Of a DNA stretch of 64,000 nt, positions 25,801 to 62,409 are shown in pieces. The translations under genes were made by a program, and so were the position numbers. The DNA is taken from positions 1 through 64,000 of the forward strand of contig JAQYVZ010000020.1 in assembly GCA_030145205.1 (NCBI GenBank), read 5' to 3'. This DNA comes from Desulfuromonadales bacterium (GTDB lineage Bacteria; Desulfobacterota; Desulfuromonadia; Desulfuromonadales; BM103). Below the pieces are notes generated by a model, which saw only the letters and a program-made list of their open reading frames with translations, had not been told where the DNA came from and searched no databases. Every line of letters starts with the position of its first letter. Within the stretch, counting starts at the first letter, position 1.

Positions 25801-26072
25801 CCCGTCAGGAACAGCAAAAGAGCGATCGGCAGCCACCACCAGCCCAGTTGTTGCCAAAGAGCGTGTAAGGAGTTCATGGAGAGGAATGATGAGACAGGTT
25901 GATCCGTTGGTAGAAATTGATCTTCAGCCATGACACCGATCGGCCAGAGCACCCATGAGAGGGTCACAAGGAAAGCCGCAAAAGCATTTTTTATCGACAG
26001 AAATGGCGACAAACTGGGAGACCCCTCCGGCAAGAAAGTTCTACGTGAACGACGATATGTCGTCATAGACAA
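22815..26072 (-). CDS. Cache-PAS-GGDEF-EAL membrane protein (c-di-GMP turnover)
   Basis: A 1085-residue inner-membrane signalling protein. After a hydrophobic N-terminus and two membrane segments (about 28-48, 75-97 and 108-128) comes a periplasmic Cache region (about 135-440), a membrane helix (about 440-462) and a HAMP-like linker. A PAS domain (about 520-640), GGDEF (about 650-815) and EAL (about 825-1075) follow. The cyclase signature is SGDEF near residue 730. The base-contacting residues in NINDNYGHAVGD keep the canonical Asn and Asp, so a c-di-GMP cyclase is expected rather than a cGAMP-making Hypr enzyme. EAL motifs EALIRW, EITETAIMED, DDFGTGYSSL and AEGLE look catalytically complete. 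The net activity cannot be predicted. Confidence 0.92.
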   Translation of the reverse strand: MSMTTYRRSRRTFLPEGSPSLSPFLSIKNAFAAFLVTLSWVLWPIGVMAEDQFLPTDQPVSSFLSMNSLHALWQQLGWWWLPIALLLFLTGWLVWRLWKGKGSFQKNSLSWNILFVFSLVLLLLVINAVNYAQEYQRNSHQVQQHFLEHSQELIKQRVDFIIDFIEEERKYAEQRFKDSLKVSVDQAHDKALSLLAETDGAPSLKEQTALMMEALRKVQDQNQHSDLFVKRMDGTDLFSPDQPECEDRYTLASKDQDGVYYVQEMIRVSRDEGRGFVSCRINELGAPANGHGKLFYVRHVEPLDCFVGTSASLDVFDAEIRQEISVRLEALQFSGSLTIFGVSYDGTELFGPGQGRNMIGATDRNGVKVVQELIAAAKRGGGFVRYHMPASVDKQQYPKLSYSKPIPGWDSYIGAGVNLDHLDMELQRAQAQMLSLLFKQVVETAVLIPFVAAFFLLAGRWLSKRINRNIRVLETSLDKAAAEDVLVDTSQIEFEEFVHIAESANRMLQERQIASRALHESEERFRTMFDNAPLMVALLNPEGMPLFVNVQMSQATGFPLEELLEKPFLEIVAPQKKNVVRDCLDQVGSGRQSVSRLDSNFVTHGGHTLDVDQSLAPIFDAEGSVKYVMMMAKDITDRCQHEKRLEWLGMHDDLTGLANRAKVMYLVETVLSKKDVKDGGDVCWLLLADLDRFKNINDNYGHAVGDIFLKEVGERLQKICPEHGLTARLSGDEFVIVASFEDADAASRFAEKVCLEISLPIECNDLLLQVQVSIGLTAVTGESASEVLRRADLAMYQVKRSQLTGGIQVYNDQIEEAIRGRQKLENDIQAAITAPEQFQLYYQPIWNRTDGGLKGVEALIRWNHPTRGLVFPDEFIPQAEEGGLIVALGKIVLHIACRDLRGWHDQYPDLLEDGFRVSVNLSPQHLMTVDLVDEVHATLVEHDIDPGEICLEITETAIMEDPIVAARRLNALKALGLQIAIDDFGTGYSSLSYLNQFNVDLIKMDRSMTQNVDSVGTSAKVFTAVVNLAHDLGLKVVAEGLETQSQLIFLGNVDCDYVQGYLTGRPMTVDALAPLLEQSSCDLLR

Positions 26073-40928: not shown

Positions 40929-40945
40929 TTGGCATAACTTCTGCA
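40929..40945 (+). promoter_or_regulatory. Sigma-54 (RpoN) promoter candidate, operon 1
   Basis: TTGGCATAACTTCTGCA matches the -24/-12 consensus YTGGCACGRNNNTTGCW at most defined positions and has the strict GG-N10-GC spacing. It lies about 110 bases before the riboswitch. A better match occurs at the same relative place before the second riboswitch (57219), which strengthens both calls. Confidence 0.7.
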
Positions 40946-41055: not shown

Positions 41056-41153
41056 CTTCTCCGACAAGAGCAAAACCGGAGCAATCCGATGACGCAGAGC
41101 CAAGGACCCGAAAGCATTGATGTTTATTGGGAAGCCTGGCCGCCGAAGAGAAG
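41056..41153 (+). promoter_or_regulatory. GEMM-I riboswitch 1, predicted cGAMP type
   Basis: The RNA shows the GEMM-I core: P1 CTTCTC (41056-41061) with GAGAAG (41148-41153), AGCAAAACC, a small P2 hairpin, GACGCAGAGCC, then the P3 arm closed by CCTGG. In Vc2 numbering position 20 (two bases before CAAA) is A, and A47 and C46 are kept. A at position 20 marks the Geobacter GEMM-Ib variants that sense 3',3'-cGAMP rather than c-di-GMP. A terminator follows at 41197. Confidence 0.87.
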
Positions 41154-41196
41154 GTGTAAACCAGACGACAGCCGTGACTAATTACGCTGGCAAAGG

Positions 41197-41239
41197 TAGC
41201 GCCGCATTTCGGCTTCACGAAGGACGGCGCTATTTTTTT
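41197..41239 (+). terminator. Riboswitch expression-platform terminator, operon 1
   Basis: TAGCGCCG (41197-41204) pairs with CGGCGCTA (41225-41232), with an inner TTCG/CGAA stem, and seven T residues follow (41233-41239). Its place between the aptamer and the first gene indicates transcriptional control. Confidence 0.88.
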
Positions 41240-41300
41240 GCCAAGCATGGTGACCATAATTGGCCAAGGGAGTAGTGCGCCCTGACAAATTATGGCGTTT

Positions 41301-41326
41301 TGACATCACCCTTTAGGGTGATGTCA
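41301..41326 (+). promoter_or_regulatory. Conserved leader hairpin before the operon 1 start codon
   Basis: TGACATCACCC pairs perfectly with GGGTGATGTCA over a TTTA loop, 24 bases before the preferred start codon. The same hairpin occurs at 57594-57619, including one compensatory base-pair change (G-C to C-G), which supports a conserved RNA structure. No T run follows, so it is not a terminator. Confidence 0.7.
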
Positions 41327-41350
41327 CGGAATCGCAACGAACCACGTGCT

Positions 41351-44300
41351 ATGATTTTTTCGTTTTCACAGATTTCAACGATTATTTTCAGATACCTTCT
41401 GACCCGGGTGAGATTAATTTCTTGCCTGTGTCTGATCGCACTTCTGTCGCTTGTGGTCGCTCCTTCACAGGTCTGGGCCTGGCCAACTGACAGCCAGTGG
41501 CTTGAGTTGGTCAAGAACGATGCTCCAATCCAAGATGATGAAGGTGATGCCAACGGTGGAGTCAACATCGTACCGGACGACGGCACCCATGCCGCGGCCT
41601 ACATCTACAACGACGGCGCCTACCTCTACTACCGAATCCGTATCGACAGCGACCCTACCGGCAACAACGGCGTCTTCGACCAGTTCGGTTGGGGCTTCGA
41701 AATTGACACCGACCAGAATGCCGCCGACTACGAATGGCTGATCATGTGCGACGGCATCACCAGCCCCGAGGTCATCTCACTTCGAGAAAACACTGAAAAA
41801 ACCGCCTTGGGCGACCCTTCCGACAAAGCTGAATACATCGCAGCTGAATATCCCCTGGTCGGCAACCATCAGCTCTCAGCGGCCGACACCTCGATCAACG
41901 GCGACCAAGACTACTTCATCGACTTCCGGATGCCTTTCGCGGTCTTCAAGGCCGCCACCGGCATTACTGACGACACCCTGATCCGCTACTTCGTTGGCAG
42001 TTCCCGTTCTGCCAGCAACCTGACCAACACCGGGGCAGACCTGGTCGCTGGCTCAAGCTTGTACGACATGGCCTCCGACTACATAACCCCGTTTGGCACC
42101 CTGCCTTCGGATCTAAACTTCTACGACGGCACCGTAAACTTTACGGAAGACCTGGCTGGCCTAGTTGATGACAACCTCGCCGCTCCCGGTGAGCCGCTCT
42201 ACCTCAAGGTTGAAGACCTTGACCTGGACAGCACGACCAACCCCCTCGGCACACTGCGGGTGGAGTTGACCTCACCCACCGGTGACAGCGAAATTCTGAT
42301 CTTGACGGCCACTGGGGTTCAGGGCAAATACACCGGGACGATCCCGACCTCATCAACCAGCAACTCCGCCGGCACCCTCTACGTACTTGATGGCCAGACC
42401 GTCACAGTGACTTACCTGGAGGCAGTTGCAGCCAACCGCTCTCAGAGCGTGTCGCGTACCGACACCATCCTGTTTGCCGCCACCGGCACCGATGTCGGCA
42501 TCACCAAGAGTGTCGATAAGGCCGTTGCGAACATCGGCGAAACGGTCACCTTCACCGTCACGGCGACCAACAACGGCCCGAGCGCCATTACCAGCCTGAG
42601 TATTACCGAAACACTGCCAACGGGCATGACACCGGTCCTGATCACCCCGAGCCAGGGTAGTTATACCGGCAGCACCTGGGCAGTTGGCGGCCTGGCTAAC
42701 GGCAGCAGTGCCACACTGACCCTGCAGATGACGGTCGATACCGGAACCAGCGGCACAACCCAGACCAACACGGCAGCTCTGGCCAGCAGCACACCAACCG
42801 ACCGCTACAGCGCCAACAACACTGCCAGCGCCAGCGTCGTCATCGGCGGCACCGACCTGCGCGTCACCAAGGACGTCACCGATCCGCTACCAACAGAGGG
42901 AGACACAATCACTTACCGGGTTCGCGTCCTGAACCTCGGCCCTAATCCGGCCACTGGCGTGCAGATTAAAGACAGCCTGCCTTTGGACGTCACCCACGTT
43001 TCCGACAACAGCGGCGGCAGCTACGACCCTTCGAGCGGAATCTGGACTGTCGGCAGCCTGGCCGTGGGCGGCGGCGCCTTACTGCGCATTGACGTCAACG
43101 TGAATAGCGGCACATCAGGCCAAACGATCACCAATACGGCGTCGGTCTTTGCACTTGACCAACTCGACCCCGACTCTAGCAACGATACGGCCAGCGCCGA
43201 CATTCAGGTTGACTATCTCGATCTGGAACTGTCCAAGTCGGTCAGCGATGATACCCCGGATGAAGGTGACACCATCACCTACACCATCACGGTCGACAAC
43301 AACGGCCCACACGATGCCACCGGCATCGAAGTCACCGACCTTCTGCCGACCGGCGTGACCTACAGCGGCTATACCGCCAGCCAGGGGACCTATGTCTCCG
43401 GAACAGGGGTCTGGACTGTAGGCGACATCGACGACAAGGACGACGCCACCCTGACCATCACAGCAACCGTTGACAGCGGCACTGCGGGACAGTCGGTCCT
43501 TAACGAAGCGGAAATCACCGATGCTGTTCAATCGGACAGCAACCCCGGCAACGAATATGCCTCAGCAGTCATCAGCGTCGCCGGTACCGACCTGCAGGTC
43601 AGCAAGAGCGTCAACGATGCCACCCCCACGGAAGGGGACAGCATTACCTGGACCATCACGGTCACGAACAACGGCCCAAATACGGCCAGCGGCATTGAGG
43701 TCAGCGATATCCTGCCAGCGGGTGTCAGCTACTCGAGCTACTCCGCCAGCCAAGGCAGCTACGATAACAAGAAGACCATGGTCTGGTCGGTCGGCACCCT
43801 GGCCGCCGCCGCCAGTGCCACCCTGCAACTCGTCAGCACAGTCGATGGCGGCACCAGCGGCCAGACCATCGTCAACGTCGCCTTCATCACCGCATCTGAT
43901 CAGAGCGACCCAGACGCCTTCAACAATACGGCCAGCGCAACCATCGCGGTGGATGGTGCTGATCTTGGCATCATCAAAAGCGTTAGTAACGCGACGCCGA
44001 TCATCGGCGAAACAATCACCTATACCCTGACCTTGACCAACGGCGGTCCGAACAATGCGACCAATATCGCTGTGACCGACCTGCTGCCGCCGGACCTCTC
44101 CTACCAGGGAAGCACACCGAGCCAAGGCAGCTATGCGTCTGCAACGGGAATCTGGACGGTCGGCAGCCTCAACAACGGCGCAACCGCCACCCTGACGCTG
44201 TCGGCCCTGGTTCTCGACCAGCGCGACAACCTGACCATCACCAACACGGCAACCATCAGCGCCGCCGATCAGGCCGACGCCAACACGGCCAACAACAGTT

Positions 44301-45097
44301 CCAGTGCCGATATCACCATCGCGGCCACCGACCTGGAGGTCACAAAGATCGTGGACAACGTCACCCCGAGTGTCGGCGGCACCGTCATCTACACAGTCAC
44401 GGTTGAAAACCTCGGTGCGAATACAGCGACCACCGTCGAGATCGACGACATTCTGCCGACTGGCGTCACCTACGCGAGCCATGTTGCCGATCAGGGGATT
44501 TACGCCGCAGGCCTGTGGTTGCTCGGTGACCTGAATGCCACAAGCAGCGTCAACCTCTACATAACGGCTACAGTCGACTCCGGCACCGGCGGCAGCACCA
44601 TCACCAACACGGCGAGCGTCCTCAGTCTCGATCAGATCGATACCAACTCGGCAAACGATTCCGACAGCGTCGATATTGTGCCGGTGTTCGTCATCCAACC
44701 CACGCTGTTAATCATGAAGTCTGCGGACGTAGCCACTGTCGATCCGGGTGGCACGATTACCTACACCGTTCAGGTCAGTAACTCCGGGGCAGGAGCAGCT
44801 ACCTCCGTCGTTTTGACCGACGTACTCAGTCCTTACGCGGCCTGGGGAATCGACTGGCTGAATGACGGTGCCCCTTACAACCCGTTTTTTGAGAACCTGA
44901 GCAGCATCGGCCTGAGTATCGCCAGCCTGACCTTCTCAGACAATGACGGCGCCGACTTTACGTACACTCCCACAGACGGCGGCGGCGGTGCCCCCGCCGG
45001 TTATGACGGCAATGTCACCAACTGGAAATTAACATTGAGCGGCTCAATGAACTCAGGAACCAGCTTCTCCCTGCAGTATAGAGCCAGTGCAAAATAA
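41351..45097 (+). CDS. Large secreted DUF11-repeat surface protein, operon 1
   Basis: About 1248 residues. The ATG at 41351 is chosen because it aligns with the start of the paralogous operon; the frame is open from a TTG at 41300 inside the leader hairpin. A long signal peptide ends near SQVWA. An N-terminal domain of about 300 residues (WPTDSQWLELVKND, QFGWGFEIDTDQN) looks like an all-beta, perhaps carbohydrate-binding, module. A Ca-binding-like region precedes seven DUF11 repeats of about 121-126 residues, beginning near 42484, 42846, 43210, 43580, 43953, 44319 and 44696. Each starts with a strand such as TDLxVSKSV and contains EGDTITYTITVxNNGP. There is no LPxTG, lipobox or barrel, so attachment to the cell must depend on partners. 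It is probably a rod-like adhesin or matrix protein. Confidence 0.88.
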   Translation: MIFSFSQISTIIFRYLLTRVRLISCLCLIALLSLVVAPSQVWAWPTDSQWLELVKNDAPIQDDEGDANGGVNIVPDDGTHAAAYIYNDGAYLYYRIRIDSDPTGNNGVFDQFGWGFEIDTDQNAADYEWLIMCDGITSPEVISLRENTEKTALGDPSDKAEYIAAEYPLVGNHQLSAADTSINGDQDYFIDFRMPFAVFKAATGITDDTLIRYFVGSSRSASNLTNTGADLVAGSSLYDMASDYITPFGTLPSDLNFYDGTVNFTEDLAGLVDDNLAAPGEPLYLKVEDLDLDSTTNPLGTLRVELTSPTGDSEILILTATGVQGKYTGTIPTSSTSNSAGTLYVLDGQTVTVTYLEAVAANRSQSVSRTDTILFAATGTDVGITKSVDKAVANIGETVTFTVTATNNGPSAITSLSITETLPTGMTPVLITPSQGSYTGSTWAVGGLANGSSATLTLQMTVDTGTSGTTQTNTAALASSTPTDRYSANNTASASVVIGGTDLRVTKDVTDPLPTEGDTITYRVRVLNLGPNPATGVQIKDSLPLDVTHVSDNSGGSYDPSSGIWTVGSLAVGGGALLRIDVNVNSGTSGQTITNTASVFALDQLDPDSSNDTASADIQVDYLDLELSKSVSDDTPDEGDTITYTITVDNNGPHDATGIEVTDLLPTGVTYSGYTASQGTYVSGTGVWTVGDIDDKDDATLTITATVDSGTAGQSVLNEAEITDAVQSDSNPGNEYASAVISVAGTDLQVSKSVNDATPTEGDSITWTITVTNNGPNTASGIEVSDILPAGVSYSSYSASQGSYDNKKTMVWSVGTLAAAASATLQLVSTVDGGTSGQTIVNVAFITASDQSDPDAFNNTASATIAVDGADLGIIKSVSNATPIIGETITYTLTLTNGGPNNATNIAVTDLLPPDLSYQGSTPSQGSYASATGIWTVGSLNNGATATLTLSALVLDQRDNLTITNTATISAADQADANTANNSSSADITIAATDLEVTKIVDNVTPSVGGTVIYTVTVENLGANTATTVEIDDILPTGVTYASHVADQGIYAAGLWLLGDLNATSSVNLYITATVDSGTGGSTITNTASVLSLDQIDTNSANDSDSVDIVPVFVIQPTLLIMKSADVATVDPGGTITYTVQVSNSGAGAATSVVLTDVLSPYAAWGIDWLNDGAPYNPFFENLSSIGLSIASLTFSDNDGADFTYTPTDGGGGAPAGYDGNVTNWKLTLSGSMNSGTSFSLQYRASAK

Positions 45098-45142: not shown

Positions 45143-45637
45143 ATGAAAAACCGAAACCTGATTACTGCAGTACTGTTCATCCTGCTGGCCTTGCCAACTC
45201 TGGCATTGGCCAAGCCGGCCGTAGAAGTCAGCATGATCGTCGAAAAAGAGCTCGTTGTCGTCGAAGACGGCAAGGAAGTGACCAAGATGGTTACTGCCGA
45301 AGAGATCATTCCGAGTGAAGTTCTCTTCTACACCATCACTTTCACCAACAACGGCGACGAAGCAGCCACCAACGCAGTCATCAACAACCCGGTTCCGGAA
45401 GGCACGGCCTACCTGCCGAATACAGCCTCCGATGAAGCGGGTAACGTCAGTTTTTCAATCGACGGTGGTCAGACATACAAAAAGCCAACCCTGCTGACCT
45501 ACGAAGTGACTCTACCGGACGGCTCCAAAGAGCAACGGACTGCTTCACCGGAGCAGTACACGCATATCCGCTGGCAGGTTGAGAAGATTGAGGTCGGCCA
45601 AACCGGAAAGATTTCGTTTCAGGTGCGCGTCAAATAG
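45143..45637 (+). CDS. Small secreted single-DUF11-domain protein, operon 1
   Basis: A 164-residue protein with a clear signal peptide (MKNRNLITAVLFILLALPTLALA) and one DUF11-like domain (EVLFYTITFTNNGDEAATNAVINNPVPEGTAYL). It ends QYTHIRWQVEKIEVGQTGKISFQVRVK. GGAGG precedes the ATG. Its paralogue in operon 2 (60489) has the same length, the same NPVP and YTHIRWQ motifs and the same place after the large DUF11 gene. It could be a structural subunit, cap or chaperone of the assembly. No catalytic residues are apparent. Confidence 0.87.
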   Translation: MKNRNLITAVLFILLALPTLALAKPAVEVSMIVEKELVVVEDGKEVTKMVTAEEIIPSEVLFYTITFTNNGDEAATNAVINNPVPEGTAYLPNTASDEAGNVSFSIDGGQTYKKPTLLTYEVTLPDGSKEQRTASPEQYTHIRWQVEKIEVGQTGKISFQVRVK

Positions 45638-45900
45638 GCGCATCAACGTTTCCATAAGGCATTTTTTCATTCACAACAACGAGGAGAGTCACCATGTATC
45701 CAGCACGCAATCTTAAACCACGGCTGTCGGACCAACCGGCAGCCAGAGACGATCCCAACCTTCACCCTGACTATGGAGGATTTTATGACCTGTTTTCAAA
45801 ATGGGCACCCCGCCCACGCACACCCGGCGCGGGCCGCCCCACAACATGTATTGATGGCAAAACCTGCAAACCAAGTAGCACTAACAGAAAGGAAAGTATC

Positions 45901-47277
45901 ATGAACATGCTCAGACTCAGAGGCACATCCTGCCTGACCGTCTGCGCCATGGTCCTCTTGGCCATAGTTGCGTTCGGTTGGACGTCAACTGCCGAGGCGA
46001 ATTCGAGTGAAGGGGCAACGATCCTCAACGTTGTCCAGGTCGACTTCGCAGACGCCAGCGGCACAGTCACCTACACGGCCACAGCATCCTCGACCGTCAC
46101 GATCAACCTGGTCGAGCAGGCCGTCACGCTCAGTGGCGCACCCACTGCAGGCAGCCCCGGTGATACGGCCGCGGCTCCCGGCAACCAGACGGTCGCCTCG
46201 GGCGCAACAGCCAGCTATGTCTACGCCATCACCGGCAACGCCAACGGCGAAGACACCATTGACCTGTCGCATACCGTCAACTCGGCAACCGATGTTGCTG
46301 CCGGCTATACCGTGACCTACAGCACAATTGATCACGATGGCAGTACCGTGATCACATCTGGAGATCCGGCAAGCATCACCTTGGGTGGCGCAGTAGCCAT
46401 TGGCGCAGTCGATGCCGACACGGTCCAGTTCCCCGGTGGAGCACTGTCCGGCTTCAGCGTAGGCGATATCGTCGTCATTGACGGCGTTGACTACGAAGTT
46501 TCTGGTGTAACCGTCGGCAGCGCAGCAAGCCATGACAACCTTGGTGCGGTTGCACATTCGGATCAGGGAACCACAACTAATGAAGTCCTTGGCACCCTCG
46601 ATCTGATCGCCAATGCCAATCCCAACGGCAGCAACACGGCGCCGGCTCTTGCGGCTCTTGCTGCCGGTACCGTCGTTGCGGAGCAGATCCTGGTCCAGGT
46701 GGATGTTACGGCAACCGCCAACAACCCAACAACAGATGGTGTTGTGGTCCATACCCTGAACACGGACTACAACAATGATGCCACGGATGACACAACCATC
46801 TCCAACACCACGACCTTCTCGACAGTCGGCCTGACCATTCAGAAAGATGTACAGAATGTGACGGCAGGTGGTGGCTATGGTGCCAGCGGCACTGGCGACC
46901 CGGGCGACATTCTCGAATATCGTCTGACCATTGCCAACACAAGTGGCGATGCAACTGATGTCACGATCACTGACATCGTCCCTGACTACACCACTTTGGT
47001 GGTTTTCAGCGACAGCTACGACGGCACAGTTTCGGGTGGTTTCAGCGCCACTGATCTTTTTGCCTATGCCGACGATGGGACCAACACAACCGACCTGACA
47101 GTCCAAGCGACTGACGATGAGGACACGACCGTCGCAGCCGGCAATGCTTCCGCACAAGCAGCGGGATCAACGCTGACAATCTTCGTCGGATCGGGAGCTG
47201 CCGACACGACCGATACAGGTGGCACTGTCACAAGCAGTGACACAATTTACGTCTACTATCAGGTCCAGATCGACTAA
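45901..47277 (+). CDS. Secreted beta-sandwich/DUF11 protein A, operon 1
   Basis: A 458-residue exported protein. GAAAGGAAA precedes the ATG at 45901, which opens a normal signal peptide (cleavage after TAEA). The same frame is open back to an ATG at 45694 that has an even better ribosome binding site (GAGGAG), so a 69-codon N-terminal extension may be translated. The mature N-terminus (ILNVVQVDFADASG) shares an I-x-N pattern with all proteins of the two operons. A C-terminal DUF11-like domain begins LTIQKDVQNVTAG with DPGDILEYRLTIAN. It is Thr/Ala/Asp-rich and nearly free of Cys and Lys. It is paralogous to the next gene. Confidence 0.82.
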   Translation: MNMLRLRGTSCLTVCAMVLLAIVAFGWTSTAEANSSEGATILNVVQVDFADASGTVTYTATASSTVTINLVEQAVTLSGAPTAGSPGDTAAAPGNQTVASGATASYVYAITGNANGEDTIDLSHTVNSATDVAAGYTVTYSTIDHDGSTVITSGDPASITLGGAVAIGAVDADTVQFPGGALSGFSVGDIVVIDGVDYEVSGVTVGSAASHDNLGAVAHSDQGTTTNEVLGTLDLIANANPNGSNTAPALAALAAGTVVAEQILVQVDVTATANNPTTDGVVVHTLNTDYNNDATDDTTISNTTTFSTVGLTIQKDVQNVTAGGGYGASGTGDPGDILEYRLTIANTSGDATDVTITDIVPDYTTLVVFSDSYDGTVSGGFSATDLFAYADDGTNTTDLTVQATDDEDTTVAAGNASAQAAGSTLTIFVGSGAADTTDTGGTVTSSDTIYVYYQVQID

Positions 47278-47372: not shown

Positions 47373-48599
47373 ATGAAGAAAAACTTTTTCCGTTTACTGA
47401 TCATGGCAGCCATGGTCATCGGAATGACCGCCCAGGCAAACAACGCTCTGGCGGCCGTCGCTGCTAACGCACCGATCATCAACCAGGCAACCATGTGGTA
47501 TGACGACGGCACTGGCCTACAGTCCGTCACAGCCGAAGTCACCGTCACCGTCACCCTCGTACCGGCAGCACCGGTCCTGGACTGCCCGGTTGACCAGACC
47601 AGCCCCTACACCAACCCGGACACCCAGCACACCTATGACTACACCCTCACCGCGGCCAGCAACGGCCCCGATGACTACACGGTTGACGCGGCAGTCACCG
47701 GATCGACCAACACCACGCTGACCATTCCTGGCACCAGCGAGCCGCTTGTAAATCTGGCCCCGAACCCGATTCGTCTTGGCGCCACGATCACCACGAGTGG
47801 CAGCACCGCGACAATCATCGCCGTCCCTGGTGACAGCGGCACACCTAACGGCAGCATCAACGACATCGCGGTCAATGACTATGTCCTGATCGGCACCGAA
47901 GTCCGTCAGGTTGTTGCCATTACCGAAGATGCAACCGCCACCAACTACATCGAACTTGATGTTGCCCTGCCTGCCGCACCGCTGGCTGGTGTCGGCGTTT
48001 ACGAACAAGTCACCTTTACTGTTGACGTCTTCTCCGGTCTTCTGACCGCAGCCGGCACCGACGTCACCGTTGATTTCGACGTCACCGCCGAGAACACCAA
48101 CGCCGATTCCACGTCCTGCTCGGCCACCAGCACCTTCACCAGCGGTGTTGCCGTGCTGACCAAGTTCGTGCGCAACCTGACCGACGCTGCCGCCAACACG
48201 ACCGGCACCGGCGGCCAGAACTTCACCATCGACGGCAACGGCGGCCTGACCTACTACACCGGCGGTGTCACGGCAGCACCGAGTGATGTACTCGAATACG
48301 TGCTCGTTGCCCAGAACACCGGCTCAGCACCGCTGACCAGCAGCCAGGTCAACGACGTTCTGCCGATCGACTATGTCGACTTCCTGGGTGGCCAGTACAC
48401 GGGCGCAACCGACATCGTTTACCAGAACGATCTCGCTGTGGAGTCTTACTACACCCAGGCAACTGGCGATGACAACGGCCAGCTTTCCGGCGCAGCCCTG
48501 ACGGTTTGGGTTGGCACCGGCGCAGCGTTCAACACCGGCGGCTCCATCCCGGCAACTTCGAACGTCAAGGCCATTTATCAGGTTACGGTCAAGCCCTAA
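47373..48599 (+). CDS. Secreted beta-sandwich/DUF11 protein B, operon 1
   Basis: A 408-residue paralogue of protein A. AAGGAG precedes the ATG and the signal peptide ends after NALAAVA. The mature protein starts with the shared pattern IINQATMWYDDG and ends with a DUF11-like part (VLTKFVRNLTD, PSDVLEYVLVAQNTGSAPLTSSQVNDVLPIDY). Both paralogues contain a short inserted segment of the type VNDYVLIGTEVRQV or VGDIVVIDGVDYEV. Operon 2 has only one such gene, so a duplication happened in operon 1 or a loss in operon 2. The function is probably structural. Confidence 0.82.
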   Translation: MKKNFFRLLIMAAMVIGMTAQANNALAAVAANAPIINQATMWYDDGTGLQSVTAEVTVTVTLVPAAPVLDCPVDQTSPYTNPDTQHTYDYTLTAASNGPDDYTVDAAVTGSTNTTLTIPGTSEPLVNLAPNPIRLGATITTSGSTATIIAVPGDSGTPNGSINDIAVNDYVLIGTEVRQVVAITEDATATNYIELDVALPAAPLAGVGVYEQVTFTVDVFSGLLTAAGTDVTVDFDVTAENTNADSTSCSATSTFTSGVAVLTKFVRNLTDAAANTTGTGGQNFTIDGNGGLTYYTGGVTAAPSDVLEYVLVAQNTGSAPLTSSQVNDVLPIDYVDFLGGQYTGATDIVYQNDLAVESYYTQATGDDNGQLSGAALTVWVGTGAAFNTGGSIPATSNVKAIYQVTVKP

Positions 48600-48629: not shown

Positions 48630-51600
48630 ATGACAGAAACACTGTTGAAATACCGCCGTCGGCTTCCCGGGGTTCGCCCCGGGGGGTCGGCTGCGGCCCT
48701 TTTTCGAATGAAGGGCCAGACTGGTGCGCATAGCGCGGACCGGAGCGGTGCAGTGCGCCTGTCAACCTTGCTACTGACAACAACCTGGCAGCTGCTACTC
48801 TGCCTGTGTCTGCTGACCAGCCTGATTCTGCCCGGCAACACACTGGCCGCCACGCCGCAATTTGGTGACGAGATTGTTAACTTCGTCGAGCTGATCGCAG
48901 ACGGTCAGCCACCGACCACTTACTCTGTCACGGTTACGGTGAAAGGCCGTTCGCCTTCCGTCATCGAGTTCCTGCATTACGCCCCACCGGGAACTCCGGG
49001 AGCTGAACCGCCCATCACCGTAGGTGTGACCGAATACAGCACAACCGGCGACCCGGCCGGACCCTTCGCCGTTGTCCCGAACCCGCGTGAATTCCCGAAC
49101 AACGCGCTGATCAACATCAACAGCGTCGCGCTGGTGCCGGCCGACCAGTACAGTATGGGCGCAGCCACCTTCATCCGCCTGACCGATCTCGAGAAGAACG
49201 AAAACCCAACCGCCTGGGAAACGGTGCTGGTCACTGTCACCTCGCCCGACACCGGCGACACTGAACTGCTGCGCCTCCGGGAAACCGGCATCGACACCGG
49301 CGTCTTCGTCGGCTACCTGCAGACCCGCGACGCCAGCCTGCCGCCAAGCACCCGGCCTTACCTGGATGTCGTCGTGATGAGCCAGATCGAGGCGAGCTAC
49401 ATCGACGCCACCGACGCCACCGACACCTCGCTAGACACCGCGCTGATTTCGCCACACGCGACCCTGTTCAACAGTTTGAGTGGTGAGGCGCTGGATGGCG
49501 CCATCGTCACCCTGCTCAATCCTGACCTGAGCGACGCCACCGTTTATGCGGATGATGCGATCACGCCCGTTTCCAACGTGGTCACGACCGGCGATGTCGC
49601 GCTCGGTCTGCCGACCGGCGGTTACCGATTCCCCTACGTCCCTCCGGGCGACTATATCCTCGCAGTGCAACCGCCACTCGGCTTCACCGCGCCTTCGGCG
49701 ATCCTGCCTGCCGACCTGCCGGCTGGTTTCAGCATCGACGCCAATGGCTCTTACAGCACCGCCTTCACCATTTATCCGGGTCCTCCGGCCGTGGTCGATA
49801 TCCCGGTCGATCCGATCGCCGTGGAACCGACGCCATCGACCGTCGAGTTCCTGCACTTTGCCCCGCCTGGCACACCCGGTGCGGAACCGGCGATTGATGT
49901 CGCCGTGACCCAATACAGTACCAGTGGTGATCCCATTGGACCTTTCGCAGCCCTGCCGGCACCGACCCGCTTCCCGGACGGCACGCCGATCGACCTGAGC
50001 AGTGTGGAGCTGGTCCCGACCGAACTCTACCTCGTCAACGAACCGCTCTTTGTCCGCCTGTCCGACCAGGACCAGAATCTCAGCCCGGTGGTGCGCGAGA
50101 CCGTCCTGGTGACAGTCACCTCGCCGGACACCGGCGAAACTGTCTTGCTACGGATCACGGAAACCGCGCCGGATAGCGGCGTGTTTGTCGGCTACCTGCA
50201 GTCGCGTGATGCAACCACGCCGCCCGAAGCATTCCCGACCCTGGCGGTTGAATTGGGAAGCCAGATCGAGACGAGCTATGTCGATGACGCCGACGCCACC
50301 GACACATCGACCGATACGGCCCTGATTTCACCGCACGCGACTGTCTTCAGCAGTGCGAACGGCACCCCCGTAGACGGCGCCATCGTCACCCTGCTCAACT
50401 CCGACCTGAGCGATGCGACGGTCTACGCCGTGGACGGTGTGACCCCAATCTCCAACGTGGTTACTACCGGTGACGTGGTGCTCGGTCTGCCGACAGGCGG
50501 CTTCCGCTTCCCCTACATACCGCCGGGCGATTACATCCTCTCGGTGCAGCCGCCCACCGGCTACACCTGGGCCTCGACGGTGCCGCCGGCAAGTCTGCCG
50601 GCTGGCTTCAGCATTAACGTCAACGGTTCTTACGGCAATGTCTTCAGCATCGCCCCAGGACCGCCGGCTGTTATCGACATTCCGGTCGACCCGTTCGTGG
50701 TGGTGCGCACACCATCCACCATCGAGTTCCTGCATTTTGCCCCGCCCGGCACTCCGGGTGCCGAGCCGGCAATCGATGTGGCGATTACCGATTACAGCAC
50801 CAGCGGCGATGCGGCCGGCCCCTTCGCAGCCCTGCCGGTGCCGACCCACTTCCCGGACGGCACGCCGATCGACCTGAGCAGCGTGGAACTGGTCCCGACT
50901 GACTACTACCACATCGGAGAGCCTCTCTTCGTTCGGCTGATCGACCTTGACCAGAACCTCAACCCGACCATCCGGGAGACGGTGCTGATGACCCTCGTAT
51001 GTGCAGCGACCGGTGACACCATCCTGCTGCGCATTACCGAAACGGAAGTGAACTCCGGCATCTTTGTCGGCTACATCCAGTCACGGAACGTCATCGCGCC
51101 TCCGGAAGTCTTCCCGACTCTGGCAGTTGAACCGGAATGTCATATTGAAGCGCATTACACAGACATCTCTGACGGCACTGACGTCTCAACGGCAGCCGCC
51201 CTGGTCGACCCTTACGGCATCGTCTTCGACAGCCAGACAGGTGAACCGGTCGATGGCGCAACGGTACGCATCTTGTTCGCTGATGACACCGTCCCGCCCG
51301 TTTTCGCAGATGACGGCGTGACCCCCTTCCCCAACGAGGTGATCAGCGGCGATACAGCACTCGGCTTCCCGGAGGGTGGCTTCCGCTTCCCGTATGTCGC
51401 ACCGGGCGACTATAAACTGATTGTCGAACCGCCAGCCGGCTACACCTGGGCATCCCGTGTTACCCCCACCGACCTGCCGGAGGGTTTCAGTATCGACCCA
51501 GACGGTTCCTACGGTCAGGCCTTCACTCTCTACCCGGGACCACCGGTACGAATCGACATCCCGGTTGACCCGGAAGTCACCGGCCTCTGGCTGCAGAAGA

Positions 51601-54600
51601 GTGTCAACCGGACGACCGTCGCGGTAGGCGACTATGTCCAGTACCGCCTGACCCTGCAGAACATCAGCGAAACCGCGCTGGCTGTTGACGTACACATCAC
51701 CGACCAGCTGCCGCCAGGCTTCCGGTATCAATCCGGTTCAGCGGAGCGTGACGATATCAAGCTGACCCCGACGATCTCGGGGGACGGCCGCACCCTGGTC
51801 TTTGCGATTGGCGACCTGCCCGCCGGCGAGACGGCAACAGTGACCTATGTCACTGAAATTACGGCGGGCGCACGCCTCGGCAACGCCGTCAACACCGCTC
51901 AGGCGGTCGACACCTCCGGCACCCTCTCCAACCTGGCCAAGGAGAGCGTCGAGGTTCGTGAAGACCTGTTCCGAAGCAAGGCCTTGGTCGCCGGTCGCGT
52001 CATCGACGGCCCCTGCGAAACTCCGGACACCGAAAAGCCGGGGCTGGGTGACGTCCGTATCCTGCTCGAAGACGGCACCATGGCACTGACCGACGAGAAC
52101 GGCATGTTCCACTTCGAGGGTATCGACCCGGGTGTGCACGTGGTCCAGCTTGATCATGAAAGCCTGCCGGAGAATTACCAACTGCTCGCCTGCGAGGAGA
52201 ACACCCGCTTCGGCGGCCGCGACTTCTCCCAATTCGTCGACATCCAGGGGGGCACCCTCTGGCGCACCGATTTCTACGTTGCGCCGAAACCACCGCCTAC
52301 CGGCGAAGTCGGCGTGGAGTTGATCAGCAGTCTCGAGGATGGGCAACTCCTGTATCAGGCAGAATTGTCGGGAACCGAGGTTCCGCTGGAGAATCTCCGC
52401 CTGATCATGACCCTGCCGGCGGGTGCGAGTTACACCCCCGATACAGCCCGTTTCGATGATGGTACCCGCAAGGAGCCGACTATCAACGAGCAGGTCCTGA
52501 CCTTTGAGCTCGGCGACTCTGACGGGGACTGGCAGCGGACTCTGCAGTTCCGGGCGACGCTTGATCCGGATATTGAAACGGGTGAACTGGCCACAGTAGC
52601 CGTGCTGGGATTTGATGCACCACAGGCTGCAGCACAGAAGACTCCGGAGGCGGAGACCCGCTTCCAGGTCACCGGCGGCGAGCCGATCCTGTCGCGCAAG
52701 TTCCTGGTCCGTTCGCACTTTGACAGCTTCGAATCGACCCTCGACACTGCTGACCGGGATATCCTCGACAACCTGGCGGAACAGCTCGACGAATGGGATA
52801 TCCTGCACGTGTTCGTGGTCGGCCATACCGATAGTGTCCGCATTGCGCCGCGCAGCCGGCACATTCATGCCGATAACCAGGCGCTCTCCATCACCCGGGC
52901 GCGCAGCGTCAGCAGCTACCTTGACCGCGTCCTCGATCTCGCTCCGGGGCAAATCAGCCTCGACGGCGTAGCGGAGACGGAACCGGTCGCCGACAACCGG
53001 ACGGCTGAAGGACGCGCCAAAAACCGCCGCGTTGAAGTCCTCGGACTGGCCAAGCAAGGCGATGTCACGTTGACAAAGCATGAGCCGGCCCTTGCTGCTG
53101 TCATCATTCCGGAGGCGCCAATCCCGGTCGTTACCGAGCAACAGCCAGAGGTAAAGCAAGACTCCCGCGTTTACCGGCACCCGATGATTACGGTACCAGC
53201 CCGCAGCCGGCCGAATCAGATAGTTCCCGGCGTTCCGGCCGAGGAGATCAAAACTCGACCCGAACCTGTCCAGGAGACGCCGCTTGCGGTTCAACCACCA
53301 AGTCTACCTGCGGTTGATTCGGAGAGGATGACGCCGGCACTCCAAGCTCCTCAAGAGCCGGAAATCGTCACCGCACCGCAACCAACCCGCCAGCAATTTG
53401 CCCTGTGGCCGAATTTCAGCGGACGCACTGCCGAGTTGACGGCTGAAGCAATTGCTCCGATCAAACGTCTGGTGCAGCAGTTGAAACTTCAGAATGTCCA
53501 GCGGCTGAATGTCACCAGCCACTCCGGATATCGTGACCTGTCGCGGCAACGAGCCCGCAAGATCGCTGAAATCCTCAGCAGCGCGCTCGCCCTGCAGCCG
53601 GACCAGATCAAGGTGTTCGCCATGGGCCAGACCGGTCCTGTTCCCGAACAAGGTCCGGCCCCGGACAACCGGGTCGAAATTGAGGTTGTCTCCTCAACCT
53701 CCGCACTGTCGGAACAATCGACGAATGTCAGGGAGACATCCTCCACGGTATCAACCCCGCCGAACGTATCAACGGCAGGACAAACCGGCTCTCCCCTTCA
53801 GGCCCGCACGACGGCAACGATCACAGCAGCCGAGGCAGCTACATTGCACGCTTTTGCCGCTGAGCAGCGCCAATCCGTCGAAACCAGCATGGAACAAACG
53901 CAGCAAGTGGGTCGACAGCAGCCGAAGGTGGATCTGACCAAGCCACGCAGCGGTCGCCAGGCAACGGCAACCAAGGGTCTGGTGCCTGGAGCCCCGACGA
54001 CCCCGCTAACAGAAGAGGAGGTCGTCGAAGACACCCGTGAAGGCATCCTCTCCTTCAGCGACGGCGATCTGCTGATCCATCGCCACAACGCGATCCGGCT
54101 ACGCGCCAACGGCAAACTGAAGATCGTTCTGATGCTGGATGGTGTTGAAGTCCCATCGGACCGGATCGGCTTCCGGATGAGGGAAGAATCCGGATCCGTG
54201 CTGATGACCTACATCGGTGTCGACTTTGGAGATCCTGGCCCGCATACCCTGCAACTACTCGGCAAGGACCCCTTTGGTATTACCCGTTATGAGCAGACAC
54301 TCAACCTGATCCGAACCGGCGAGATCACCGACCTGAGGCTGATCGACGCAACCGGCAACATTGCAGATGGCAAGACCCCGATCCGCCTGCGTCTGGAGTT
54401 GAAAGACAGCAATGGCCAAGTCGTTCCGGTGGGCACCGAACTGCGCCTGATGGAGGGCACTCTGCGGCCCTATGCAGACAAATCCCTGGTTCCGGAAGAT
54501 CCGACCGGCCAGGTGACAGTTGACATTGCCAAGGACGGTACGATCCTGTTCCAACCGGTCAACACTGCCGGACCTTACCGCGTCGAGCTTGCCTACAACG

Positions 54601-57071
54601 ATGTCACAATCGAGGTGGAAACCTACGTCAAACCTTACCTGCGTGACTGGATTCTGGTCGGTTTCGCTGAAGGGACCGTCGGCTACCGAACGATCGACAG
54701 TCATATAGAAGAGACGCCTGACGACCTGGATGAACACTACTTCAGCGATGGCCAAGTCAAGTTCTACGCCAAGGGCCGTGTCAAGGGCGACTGGCTGATG
54801 ACCCTCGCCTATGATTCCGACAAACCAGACCTCGATGGCGAGAGTTTGCACCAGACGATCGACCCGGGCAGCTACTACACAGTCTATGGCGACACATCAC
54901 AGCAGTACTACGATTCGGCCAGCGCCCGCGATCTCTATGTACGCATGGACAAAGACCAATTCTACGCCCTGTTCGGCGACTTCGACACCGGCTTGAGCAC
55001 GACGGAACTGTCACGCTACAGCCGGAGCCTGAGCGGCCTGAAAACATCGATGGAACATGAAGACTTTACCTTTACCGCGTTTGCCAGCGACACGCGTCAA
55101 GTCTTCGTCAAGGATGAGATTCAGGGCGATGGCACCTCCGGACTCTATCGTCTCTCCAACGAGCCGATTGTCACGAACTCGGAGAAGATCACCATCGAAA
55201 CCCGCGGCCGGCTGCACAGCGAACAGGTCATCGAATCAATCGACCTGGCTCGTCACACTGATTACGATATCGACTACGATGCTGGCACTCTCTTCTTCAG
55301 GCGGCCGATCCCGAGCCGGGATGCAGATTTCAACCCGGTCTTTATCGTAATCCGCTACGAAGTCGAGGGCAGCGACACCCAGCATTTGACGTACGGCGGC
55401 AGAGGTGCGGTCCGATTGCTGGATCGCCGCCTGGAGATTGGGGCCAGCCACATCCATGAAGACCAGGGTGAAGACCAGGGAGACCTCTACGGCGTTGACG
55501 CCACCTACGAATTCACCGAAGAGACCCGTCTGCGTGCTGAGTGGGCGACCACCGACGTCGAAGACGCTGGAGAGACGCGGCGTGGCGACGCCACGCTGGT
55601 CGAATTCGAACATGAAGGCGAGACGCTCTCGGGACGAGCCTATTTCCGTGAGCAGCAAAGCAAGTTCGGTCTTGGACAACAGAACGGCAGCGAAACGGGT
55701 ACCCGCAAAACCGGCATTGAGGCAGAGGCCAAATTCCTTGAGAGCTTCAAACTCAGGGGACAGGTTTACCGGGAAGACAACCTGGCCACCGACGCGCAAC
55801 GCGACGTGATTGAGTCTGACATCCAATACGACCAGGAAGTCTACAGTCTCAGCCTAGGCTATCGTGAAGCGACCGACCGCTTCTCCGATGGGGACCGCGA
55901 ACAATCCCGCCAGTTGCTGAGTGGCGCCGACGTGCGCCTGTTCAATGAGAAGTTAACTCTGCGGGTCGATCATGAACAGTCGCTCGGCAGCGACAATGAT
56001 AACAGCGACTACCCGACCCGTACCGTTCTTGGCGCTGACCTTGGCGTCACCAATGGCGTGACCCTGTTTGCCGAACAGGAGTTTACCCATGGCAGTGAAA
56101 AAGAGACCGAGAGCACCCGGCTCGGCATGCGGGCGACCCCCTGGCAGGGCGGCGAGCTGAACACGGCCCTGCAGCAGGAATTCGATGAGAACGGCCAGCG
56201 TGTCTTCGCCCTGATGGGCCTGCTGCAGACCTGGGAGATGAACGAGGAATGGAGTTTTGACGCGGCCCTGGATCGCTCACAGACACTCAAGGACGATCCG
56301 GTGCGGCGTGTTAATGAAAACGTTACGGCCGCCTCCGGCAGCTCGGACGACTTCACGGCCATCTCACTCGGCGCCACCTATCGTCAAGAGCGCTGGGAAT
56401 GGTGGAACCGCCTTGAGATGCGCCAGTCGGACAGTGAAGACAAGTACGGCGTGACCAGCGGCATCCTCAGCGAACCCTGGCAGGGGACGGCCTTCAGTGC
56501 CGACACCCAGCTGTTCATCACAGATTCGACCATCGGCAGCCGCAGCACCAACTTCGATCTGCGCTTGGGAGCCGCCTATCGTCCAGCCCGTAGCCGCTGG
56601 ATGTTGCTCGACCGCTTCGACTTCGAATTCGACCGGCTGGACGGACTGAACACCTGGCGTCTGATCAACAATCTCAACGCCAACTACAAGCCACATCGCC
56701 GCATGCAGATTTCCTTGCAGCATGGCATCAAGTACGTTCAGGACAACATCGGTGACGACACCTACTCCGGCGTCACCGACCTGTTCGGTCTGGAGACCCG
56801 CTACGACCTCTCCCGCCGTTGGGATGTCGGTCTGCACGGCAGCGTGCTGCACTCTTGGAACGGCGGTCAGTTCGATTACAGCCTGGGTGCATCACTCGGC
56901 TACCTGGTCATGAAGAACGCCTGGGTCAGCCTCGGCTACAACCTGCTCGGCTTCCATGACGAAGATTTCTCCAAGGCGAACTTCACCGCTCAGGGTCCGT
57001 TTGTGCGCTTCCGCTTCAAGTTTGATCAGCAGTCGGTTCGCGAAGCTGTGGGGTGGGTCAACAGCCAATAG
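48630..57071 (+). CDS. Giant outer-membrane protein: repeats, DUF11, two OmpA-like domains, C-terminal barrel (operon 1)
   Basis: A 2813-codon frame. The ATG at 48630 lacks a ribosome binding site; a GTG at 48753 with GGAG gives a compact signal peptide and is a strong alternative. Three repeats of exactly 293 residues (about 107-985) are followed by a DUF11 domain (about 985-1110). A Cna-B/SdrD-like segment follows (VRILLEDGTMALTDENGMFHFEGI, about 1145-1225). OmpA-like domain 1 (about 1350-1475) has DNQALSITRARSV and KNRRVEV. A second, degenerate OmpA-like domain covers about 1590-1690. An Ig-like part leads into a C-terminal barrel (about 2003-2805) of alternating strands ending GPFVRFRFKF. 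The OmpA domains should be periplasmic and bind peptidoglycan. Two related surface operons carry such a gene last. Confidence 0.85.
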   Translation: MTETLLKYRRRLPGVRPGGSAAALFRMKGQTGAHSADRSGAVRLSTLLLTTTWQLLLCLCLLTSLILPGNTLAATPQFGDEIVNFVELIADGQPPTTYSVTVTVKGRSPSVIEFLHYAPPGTPGAEPPITVGVTEYSTTGDPAGPFAVVPNPREFPNNALININSVALVPADQYSMGAATFIRLTDLEKNENPTAWETVLVTVTSPDTGDTELLRLRETGIDTGVFVGYLQTRDASLPPSTRPYLDVVVMSQIEASYIDATDATDTSLDTALISPHATLFNSLSGEALDGAIVTLLNPDLSDATVYADDAITPVSNVVTTGDVALGLPTGGYRFPYVPPGDYILAVQPPLGFTAPSAILPADLPAGFSIDANGSYSTAFTIYPGPPAVVDIPVDPIAVEPTPSTVEFLHFAPPGTPGAEPAIDVAVTQYSTSGDPIGPFAALPAPTRFPDGTPIDLSSVELVPTELYLVNEPLFVRLSDQDQNLSPVVRETVLVTVTSPDTGETVLLRITETAPDSGVFVGYLQSRDATTPPEAFPTLAVELGSQIETSYVDDADATDTSTDTALISPHATVFSSANGTPVDGAIVTLLNSDLSDATVYAVDGVTPISNVVTTGDVVLGLPTGGFRFPYIPPGDYILSVQPPTGYTWASTVPPASLPAGFSINVNGSYGNVFSIAPGPPAVIDIPVDPFVVVRTPSTIEFLHFAPPGTPGAEPAIDVAITDYSTSGDAAGPFAALPVPTHFPDGTPIDLSSVELVPTDYYHIGEPLFVRLIDLDQNLNPTIRETVLMTLVCAATGDTILLRITETEVNSGIFVGYIQSRNVIAPPEVFPTLAVEPECHIEAHYTDISDGTDVSTAAALVDPYGIVFDSQTGEPVDGATVRILFADDTVPPVFADDGVTPFPNEVISGDTALGFPEGGFRFPYVAPGDYKLIVEPPAGYTWASRVTPTDLPEGFSIDPDGSYGQAFTLYPGPPVRIDIPVDPEVTGLWLQKSVNRTTVAVGDYVQYRLTLQNISETALAVDVHITDQLPPGFRYQSGSAERDDIKLTPTISGDGRTLVFAIGDLPAGETATVTYVTEITAGARLGNAVNTAQAVDTSGTLSNLAKESVEVREDLFRSKALVAGRVIDGPCETPDTEKPGLGDVRILLEDGTMALTDENGMFHFEGIDPGVHVVQLDHESLPENYQLLACEENTRFGGRDFSQFVDIQGGTLWRTDFYVAPKPPPTGEVGVELISSLEDGQLLYQAELSGTEVPLENLRLIMTLPAGASYTPDTARFDDGTRKEPTINEQVLTFELGDSDGDWQRTLQFRATLDPDIETGELATVAVLGFDAPQAAAQKTPEAETRFQVTGGEPILSRKFLVRSHFDSFESTLDTADRDILDNLAEQLDEWDILHVFVVGHTDSVRIAPRSRHIHADNQALSITRARSVSSYLDRVLDLAPGQISLDGVAETEPVADNRTAEGRAKNRRVEVLGLAKQGDVTLTKHEPALAAVIIPEAPIPVVTEQQPEVKQDSRVYRHPMITVPARSRPNQIVPGVPAEEIKTRPEPVQETPLAVQPPSLPAVDSERMTPALQAPQEPEIVTAPQPTRQQFALWPNFSGRTAELTAEAIAPIKRLVQQLKLQNVQRLNVTSHSGYRDLSRQRARKIAEILSSALALQPDQIKVFAMGQTGPVPEQGPAPDNRVEIEVVSSTSALSEQSTNVRETSSTVSTPPNVSTAGQTGSPLQARTTATITAAEAATLHAFAAEQRQSVETSMEQTQQVGRQQPKVDLTKPRSGRQATATKGLVPGAPTTPLTEEEVVEDTREGILSFSDGDLLIHRHNAIRLRANGKLKIVLMLDGVEVPSDRIGFRMREESGSVLMTYIGVDFGDPGPHTLQLLGKDPFGITRYEQTLNLIRTGEITDLRLIDATGNIADGKTPIRLRLELKDSNGQVVPVGTELRLMEGTLRPYADKSLVPEDPTGQVTVDIAKDGTILFQPVNTAGPYRVELAYNDVTIEVETYVKPYLRDWILVGFAEGTVGYRTIDSHIEETPDDLDEHYFSDGQVKFYAKGRVKGDWLMTLAYDSDKPDLDGESLHQTIDPGSYYTVYGDTSQQYYDSASARDLYVRMDKDQFYALFGDFDTGLSTTELSRYSRSLSGLKTSMEHEDFTFTAFASDTRQVFVKDEIQGDGTSGLYRLSNEPIVTNSEKITIETRGRLHSEQVIESIDLARHTDYDIDYDAGTLFFRRPIPSRDADFNPVFIVIRYEVEGSDTQHLTYGGRGAVRLLDRRLEIGASHIHEDQGEDQGDLYGVDATYEFTEETRLRAEWATTDVEDAGETRRGDATLVEFEHEGETLSGRAYFREQQSKFGLGQQNGSETGTRKTGIEAEAKFLESFKLRGQVYREDNLATDAQRDVIESDIQYDQEVYSLSLGYREATDRFSDGDREQSRQLLSGADVRLFNEKLTLRVDHEQSLGSDNDNSDYPTRTVLGADLGVTNGVTLFAEQEFTHGSEKETESTRLGMRATPWQGGELNTALQQEFDENGQRVFALMGLLQTWEMNEEWSFDAALDRSQTLKDDPVRRVNENVTAASGSSDDFTAISLGATYRQERWEWWNRLEMRQSDSEDKYGVTSGILSEPWQGTAFSADTQLFITDSTIGSRSTNFDLRLGAAYRPARSRWMLLDRFDFEFDRLDGLNTWRLINNLNANYKPHRRMQISLQHGIKYVQDNIGDDTYSGVTDLFGLETRYDLSRRWDVGLHGSVLHSWNGGQFDYSLGASLGYLVMKNAWVSLGYNLLGFHDEDFSKANFTAQGPFVRFRFKFDQQSVREAVGWVNSQ
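48945..51581 (+). repeat. Three tandem 879-bp repeats within the giant gene
   Basis: The anchor word GAGTTCCTGCA of the motif EFLHxAPPGTPGAEP occurs at 48966, 49845 and 50724, exactly 879 bases (293 codons) apart each time. The second and third copies share long identical stretches, for example around FPDGTPIDLSSVELVPT. The third copy loses about one codon near its end. The paralogous gene at 62410 has a single, more diverged unit. Confidence 0.92.
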
Positions 57072-57218: not shown

Positions 57219-57235
57219 TTGGCACAATGAGTGCA
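57219..57235 (+). promoter_or_regulatory. Sigma-54 (RpoN) promoter candidate, operon 2
   Basis: TTGGCACAATGAGTGCA fits the -24/-12 consensus with exact GG-N10-GC spacing and only two mismatches to the defined positions. It lies about 110 bases upstream of the riboswitch, as in operon 1. Confidence 0.8.
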
Positions 57236-57346: not shown

Positions 57347-57443
57347 CCTCTCCGACAATAGCAAACCCGGGGCAACCCGGGGACGCAGAGCCAAGGATCC
57401 GTAATCATTATGGTTTACGGACAGCCTGGCCGCCGAAGAGAAG
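57347..57443 (+). promoter_or_regulatory. GEMM-I riboswitch 2, predicted cGAMP type
   Basis: P1 CCTCTC (57347-57352) with GAGAAG (57438-57443), then AGCAAACC, a P2 hairpin CCGGG/CCCGG with a GCAA tetraloop, GACGCAGAGCC, a P3 arm (ATCCGTAA with TTACGGA) and CCTGGCCGCCGAA. Position 20 (Vc2 numbering) is A, as in Geobacter cGAMP riboswitches. The core is nearly the same as at 41056, while the P2 and P3 stems differ in sequence but keep their pairing. Confidence 0.9.
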
Positions 57444-57491
57444 GTGTTGACCATGTATTGTTATGCTCTTGGTCCACCTTAATAAGCGGGG

Positions 57492-57534
57492 GAAAGCCCG
57501 ACTTCGGCCTTACGAAGTCGGGCTTTCTCATTTT
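57492..57534 (+). terminator. Riboswitch expression-platform terminator, operon 2
   Basis: GAAAGCCCGACTTCG (57492-57506) and CGAAGTCGGGCTTTC (57513-57527) form a perfect 15-bp stem over GCCTTA, followed by TCATTTT. The T run is shorter than in operon 1. Confidence 0.82.
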
Positions 57535-57593
57535 ACGAATTTTGCATACGAAATTTGTCAGGGTGACGTGTACCCTGGCAAATTGTGGCGTTT

Positions 57594-57619
57594 TCACATC
57601 ACCCTTTAGGGTGAGGTGA
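57594..57619 (+). promoter_or_regulatory. Conserved leader hairpin before the operon 2 start codon
   Basis: TCACATCACCC pairs with GGGTGAGGTGA over TTTA with a single A/G mismatch. It is the counterpart of the hairpin at 41301-41326; the second base pair has changed from G-C to C-G. The preceding CAAATTGTGGCGTTTT is also shared. Confidence 0.7.
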
Positions 57620-57637
57620 CCACAACCTAACCACGAA

Positions 57638-60445: not shown

Positions 60446-60488
60446 AAACCTTTCAGACCAGTTTTTGTAACGGACCAAGGAGGTCACT

Positions 60489-60977
60489 ATGAACATCAAG
60501 AAAGCTCTTATTCTCATGACCCTGTTGCTGCTTCTGCCGCTGACGGCTTTCGCCCAACAGGAGACCATCAAGTTCGACTCGATTGCCGAAATTGAAGTGG
60601 AAGTGATCAACGAACAGGGGGAAAAAGTCCTGGTCCGGAAAGCAGCTGACCGGGTCATCCCCGGAACCATTGTCATTTACACCAACTCGCTGATCAACCA
60701 GGGCGCTGCTGCCATCGAGGGTCCGGTGATCGACAACCCGGTCCCGGCCAATACCGAATATCTGAGAGGCAGCGCCATGGGCGCCGATGCGACCATCATT
60801 TTTTCCGTTGACGGCGGTGCAAACTACGACGTCCCGGCAAAATTGATGGTCACAGATGCAAGCGGCCAAGCGGTCCCGGCCGAAGCGAAAGACTATACCC
60901 ATATCCGCTGGCAACTCGCCAACGACCTCCCGCCGGGAGGCACCACCAAGGTCGAGTTCCGCGCCAAAGTTAAATAA
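60489..60977 (+). CDS. Small secreted single-DUF11-domain protein, operon 2
   Basis: A 162-residue paralogue of the 45143 product. AAGGAGG precedes the ATG, and the signal peptide MNIKKALILMTLLLLLPLTAFA is followed by QQETIKFDSIAEIEVEV. Shared motifs are PGTIVIYTNSLINQG, IDNPVPANTEYL, FSVDGGANY and YTHIRWQLAN, ending VEFRAKVK. The conservation of one such small gene per operon suggests a fixed structural or assembly role. Confidence 0.87.
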   Translation: MNIKKALILMTLLLLLPLTAFAQQETIKFDSIAEIEVEVINEQGEKVLVRKAADRVIPGTIVIYTNSLINQGAAAIEGPVIDNPVPANTEYLRGSAMGADATIIFSVDGGANYDVPAKLMVTDASGQAVPAEAKDYTHIRWQLANDLPPGGTTKVEFRAKVK

Positions 60978-61086
60978 GAACCGAAACAGATCGTTAACCT
61001 AATGGAACGGAGAAATGACATGCGAACACATCAAGGGAAACCACCACCCGTTAACAATCACACAACGACCCAAGAGGAGAAAGCTT

Positions 61087-61122: not shown

Positions 61123-61184
61123 CAAACAACCATAAACAGAACAACACAGAACATTTATTCGCAGAACAACCAAGGAGAAACATC

Positions 61185-62402: not shown

Positions 62403-62409
62403 GGGACTT

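Follow-up and report, generated by a model that had tools for sequence, protein, structure and literature searches.

Based on the covariance-model, comparative and folding evidence presented here, positions 41056-41153 of the window (the whole 64,000-nucleotide stretch of DNA analysed, from a Desulfuromonadales bacterium; coordinates refer to its plus strand unless stated otherwise) are, judged by their sequence, a real GEMM-I riboswitch with an adenine at the ligand-selecting position. According to a folding model and comparative sequence, the riboswitch together with its expression platform (41056-41239) looks like an OFF-type switch, and its ligand is likely 3',3'-cGAMP, as suggested by the effect of an adenine at position 20 (A20) and by two Hypr-type GGDEF proteins of the same genome. 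The riboswitch class is a known one; the OFF sign and the pairing with a sigma-54 promoter appear to be the new parts.

Identity and fold of the aptamer

A preceding sequence-only reading had recognised a GEMM-I riboswitch with P1 strands CTTCTC and GAGAAG and had proposed a covariance-model scan as a check; class and stem are both borne out. The Rfam model RF01051 (c-di-GMP-I) matches 41059-41147 with 50.8 bits against a gathering cut-off of 35 (E 5.6e-7 for 4227 families over the 64 kb; a search of the genome, in which this is one of 11 copies, gives E 7.4e-9), and P1 consists of six pairs between CUUCUC (41056-41061) and GAGAAG (41148-41153). The base preceding GCAAA, A41069, is the equivalent of Vc2 G20 in the Rfam alignment, as had also been read. 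The match further contains a P2 hairpin with a GNRA-type loop (ACCGGA-GCAA-UCCGAU, 41075-41090, delimited by the Rfam alignment, pairing and covariation) and the G21-C46/C22-G45 base, A47 and the pocket C, and a plausible expression platform with terminator and antiterminator lies between aptamer and gene.

One detail of the earlier reading, an extra A in the CAAACC box, has to be abandoned. The segment GCAAAACC aligns to the Rfam model without a gap, and the fourth A of the CAAAACC box (41075) begins P2, with U41090 as its partner. In a set of 56 distinct A20 aptamers from the family, the first P2 pair is C-G in 26, A-U in 11, G-U in 10, G-C in five and something else in four, with a U opposite every A. 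The box is thus CAAA followed by a covarying pair, and an insertion is ruled out. The real weak spot of P2 is C41076, which stands opposite A41089.

Several other GEMM-I copies of the genome differ from this one. An A20 aptamer on contig C312 (L110, 2666 onward) is followed by an ON platform of the pilM type and lies in front of a gene for a 707-aa Cytochrome_C7 protein with 29 CxxCH motifs. Three copies (L002, 1501-1580; L007, 1501-1586; L010, 230-309) have G20 and a 21-46 pair swapped to C-G (GCCA.../...CGGAAA), and two (L009 and L011) have U-A in place of C22-G45; these five are possibly further ligand variants.

cGAMP or c-di-GMP as ligand

The case for cGAMP starts from the base at position 20. 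Replacing A20 by G makes a cGAMP switch of Geobacter respond to c-di-GMP instead (PMC6456294), and a GEMM-I aptamer with G20A binds cGAMP in the crystal structure 4YB1 (PMC6274999). Like the Geobacter GEMM-Ib riboswitches (Gmet_0970/pilM and GSU1761/pgcA), the window aptamer combines the GEMM-I fold with A at the ligand-selecting position, A47 and the pocket C, and its genome encodes a GacA orthologue. The Hypr signature of GGDEF proteins is a Ser in GHLVGS together with GGDEF (PMC6456294). Many of the 19 GGDEF matches in the genome are ordinary GGDEF proteins, and two carry the Ser-type GHLVGS...GGDEF signature; both have Geobacter GacA (6d9m) as their best PDB match (4e-54 and 1e-46), so that a cGAMP synthase in the same cell is predicted. 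A strong match to the GacA domain occurs in 259 of the 277 genomes of the class, the Ser having been checked in the aptamer's own genome only. The window itself encodes, on the minus strand (22818-26072), a 1085-aa Cache-PAS-GGDEF-EAL protein, possibly an enzyme of cyclic-dinucleotide turnover.

The pocket differs from that of Geobacter, where the sequence is ACUAAA/GNCGGAAAG with C21-G46 and U22-G45, whereas the window aptamer has AGCAAA/GACGCA with G21-C46 and C22-G45. The C21-G46 reading of the Geobacter pocket agrees with C15-G40 as the limits of P2 in 4YAZ (PMC6274999), and this scaffold is common in Geobacter and not a known requirement of GEMM-Ib. The window type of pocket is present in 129 of the 277 genomes of the class and in 17 of the 22 of the family; the Geobacter type occurs in 140 of the 277, mostly outside this order, and a search for it in the aptamer's own genome returned none. 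A close structural precedent is the Vc2 G20A mutant (4YB1, PMC6274999), which likewise places A20 on the canonical G21-C46 scaffold and binds cGAMP in the crystal, but which was engineered from a c-di-GMP switch, whereas the window aptamer is natural and has G at position 48.

It is conceivable, though in our judgement unlikely, that c-di-GMP is the main ligand, or that both ligands act equally well, which would make the element an OFF switch for c-di-GMP whose pocket is relaxed (A20 on G21-C46). G20 aptamers of the family (L026, L028, L031) share its scaffold and its OFF-type platform, ordinary GGDEF proteins are numerous in the genome, base 20 is a selectivity factor and no hard filter, and true cGAMP riboswitches retain some c-di-GMP binding (both PMC9262584). 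Against this stand the Hypr-type GGDEF proteins, the binding of cGAMP by the G20A aptamer in 4YB1, and the presence of A20 in every DUF11 leader found; as the search pattern itself required A20, only the operons that were identified separately, by protein, lend this conservation weight. The cGAMP selectivity that the sequence-only reading had predicted from A20 thus holds in part: cGAMP as a ligand gains indirect support from the two Hypr proteins and the effect of base 20, and 'selectivity' goes too far, given a base that is no hard filter and sits here on a G21-C46 scaffold.

Expression platform and direction of switching

With cGAMP as the likely ligand, the sign of the response is suggested by the region downstream of the aptamer, an expression platform on which the sequence-only reading had made no remark. 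An intrinsic terminator (41197-41239) is formed by UAGCGCCG (41197-41204) and CGGCGCUA (41225-41232), followed by U7 (41233-41239); the segment 41192-41242 folds with -24.2 kcal/mol (z -4.9). A strand in the 5' half of this terminator, T (UUUCGGC, 41207-41213), can alternatively form seven antiterminator pairs with strand A (GCCGAAG, 41142-41148), which comprises the start of the 3' side of P1 and C41143, the putative ligand-pairing C by analogy with C75 of the pilM riboswitch, which pairs with the ligand (PMC9262584). In a nearest-neighbour model that leaves ligand, tertiary contacts and kinetics aside, the antiterminator is favoured over the aptamer fold by about 9-10 kcal/mol (about 10 at 41217) while T has emerged and H, its partner in the terminator, has not (41213-41222); once H has emerged, the terminator wins in both operons of the window and is compatible with the aptamer.

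Comparison of related leaders is consistent with this arrangement. The complementarity of A and T exceeds that with shuffled T (p <= 0.005) in eight of the nine related leaders with a correctly found terminator, and two further leaders were read by eye. The automatic ON/OFF script misassigned some leaders, with a wrong hairpin in L071, L075 and L131, among others; those of them cited here were read by eye. Within strand T the motif YUUYGG is mostly kept across the related leaders and the remaining terminator sequence varies. The GG after YUUC is retained by 9 of the 11 leaders, mostly within the terminator loop, so that terminator pairing alone fails to explain it; two of the 11 (G010, G011) have no clear CUUCGG in strand T.

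The logic resembles that of the C. difficile Cd1 c-di-GMP-I riboswitch, an OFF switch in which T and H form the terminator and A and T an antiterminator that captures the ligand-pairing C (PMC9262584). In the thermodynamic model the window element likewise has a terminator separate from P1 and an A:T antiterminator that captures this C; it differs in having A20 and a six-pair P1, where Cd1 carries G at the selecting position and forms no stable P1.

An ON logic like that of Geobacter pilM and pgcA is quite improbable here, even though precedent favours it: deletion of gacA in G. sulfurreducens lowered all genes behind GEMM-Ib riboswitches (PMC6456294), the characterised cGAMP riboswitches in the cited literature are ON switches, and the A20 copy on contig C312 of the same genome is of the ON type. 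The pilM terminator, however, includes the 3' strand of P1 (PMC9262584), as do those of the Geobacter GEMM-Ib ON switches, whereas the window terminator begins at 41192-41197, well apart from the P1 3' strand that ends at 41153, and is compatible with P1. A pilM-like mechanism is rejected for 41056-41239, where the terminator makes no use of the P1 strand, and Geobacter-type aptamers read in the same way as a control do show the pilM plan (L197). Literature searches on Desulfuromonas cGAMP riboswitches and on GEMM-Ib with OFF logic gave no title or abstract describing a cGAMP riboswitch of the OFF type; the 2015 papers that defined GEMM-Ib were outside this literature scope, and an earlier description of OFF-type A20 aptamers is thus possible.

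Promoters, operons and relatives

The riboswitch, predicted to be of the OFF type, lies in the leader of a putative surface-protein operon. Upstream is a predicted sigma-54 type -24/-12 promoter, TGGCATAACTTCTGCA (40930-40945), with a predicted start at about 40956, and a second promoter of this type precedes operon 2 (57221-57235). Of 13 DUF11 leaders, 10 have an element GGCAY-N6-TGCW at a distance of 118-139 nt upstream of the A20 core; in the window its two copies span 40931-40945 and 57221-57235. The element is present in one of the 46 other A20 leaders, and the background rate in random stretches of 220 nt is 0.4%. In the window the motif itself is common (three observed vs 2.9 expected), and by this sequence comparison only its fixed place before DUF11 leaders is significant. 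The genome encodes rpoN; a scan for sigma-70 promoters gave a sole match, on the minus strand, which was taken as chance. In several related leaders (L105, L102 and L131) runs of 9-10 G separate the sigma-54 promoter from the aptamer; the window copies have GGGGACAAAA and GGGGGACAAAA.

Operon 1 begins with a gene for a secreted DUF11-repeat protein (41351-45097; likely ATG at 41351; seven Pfam DUF11 stretches, E 3e-195). It continues with a 164-aa single-DUF11 protein assigned by Pfam (45143-45637), which has relatives in eight other genomes of the family (E < 1e-20), with two putatively exported proteins without Pfam match (527 aa, 45694-47277; 408 aa, 47373-48599) and with a 2813-aa surface protein carrying OmpA, DUF11 and SdrD_B/SpaA-like domains (48630-57071). 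Between terminator and start codon, the leader of each operon contains two strong hairpins (z -3.5 for 41243-41345 and -4.7 for 57531-57630), those of operon 1 lying at about 41254-41295 and 41301-41326 (41254-41326 together). A similar layout is seen in several related leaders, and the two regions match no Rfam family.

Operon 2 is a second copy of this aptamer-operon arrangement. Its A20 GEMM-I aptamer (57350-57438) is followed by a terminator (57490-57529; -33.2 kcal/mol, z -7.8) and by genes for a 935-aa DUF11 protein, proteins of 162 and 427 aa and a giant surface protein that runs past the window end (57638-64000). Strand A is again GCCGAAG (57432-57438) and strand T CUUCGGC (57502-57508), and before H emerges they pair about 10 kcal/mol more favourably than the aptamer folds, as in operon 1. 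By two bits Rfam prefers for this aptamer RF03167 (c-di-GMP-I-GGC; 59.4 bits), a family of the same clan, over RF01051 (57.4 bits). At the position of the pocket A47 of both window aptamers the RF03167 consensus shows a G, which makes the label look accidental; with the marking G replaced by A, and with A20 in addition, a true subclass is doubted, and the assignment is probably a subclass misassignment.

The arrangement recurs in related genomes. Strong matches to the small DUF11 gene identify 10 operons, two of them in the window and the other eight in as many further genomes of the family. Upstream of each, at a distance of 3-8 kb and in the same orientation, lies an A20 aptamer with GACGCAGAGCC. 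Where records carrying this aptamer are named, they come from Desulfuromonadales or 'Deltaproteobacteria', and almost all are MAGs; the same pattern was seen on a contig deposited under a Longimicrobiales MAG (L147), by contamination or transfer. That 41059-41147 is a chance or decayed GEMM-like sequence without function, as the C-A mismatch in P2 and a misfolded 5' half in the ligand-free MFE might suggest, is exceedingly improbable and, to the extent that sequence can decide, already refuted by a score 16 bits above cut-off, P2 covariation, conservation at orthologous operons and a matched terminator.

Proposed mechanism and biological meaning

We propose that transcription would start at the sigma-54 promoter near 40930 and that the nascent leader would fold the GEMM-I aptamer, whose A20 pocket would bind a cyclic dinucleotide; the likeliest one is 3',3'-cGAMP from the Hypr GGDEF enzymes of the cell. 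When the ligand is lacking, strand A would pair with strand T, the terminator would come too late and the DUF11 surface operon would be transcribed. When the ligand is bound, A would be held in P1 and the pocket, leaving T free to pair with H, and the resulting terminator would stop RNA polymerase. This is the behaviour expected of a kinetic OFF switch on the plan of Cd1 from C. difficile, and we consider the whole scheme, in which ligand, affinity and in vivo direction are inferred, to be reasonably probable.

We suggest more tentatively, as a prospect of nearly even weight, that this is a natural cGAMP OFF switch, through which the messenger that activates cytochrome genes would repress a surface-protein operon driven by sigma-54. 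With an ON-type A20 aptamer before a gene with 29 haem motifs and OFF-type A20 aptamers before DUF11 operons in the same genome, cGAMP would swap surface programmes. Whereas the targets of the Geobacter riboswitches are cytochromes and pili, those in the window are DUF11 surface proteins. If the ligand is cGAMP, its regulon would reach past the ON-controlled cytochromes and pili of Geobacter to repressed secreted repeat proteins in Desulfuromonadales, and A20 on the G21-C46 scaffold would be a natural test of how GEMM-I chooses between cGAMP and c-di-GMP. The riboswitch would also offer a first way into the regulation of the DUF11/OmpA surface operon, which is conserved and uncharacterised.
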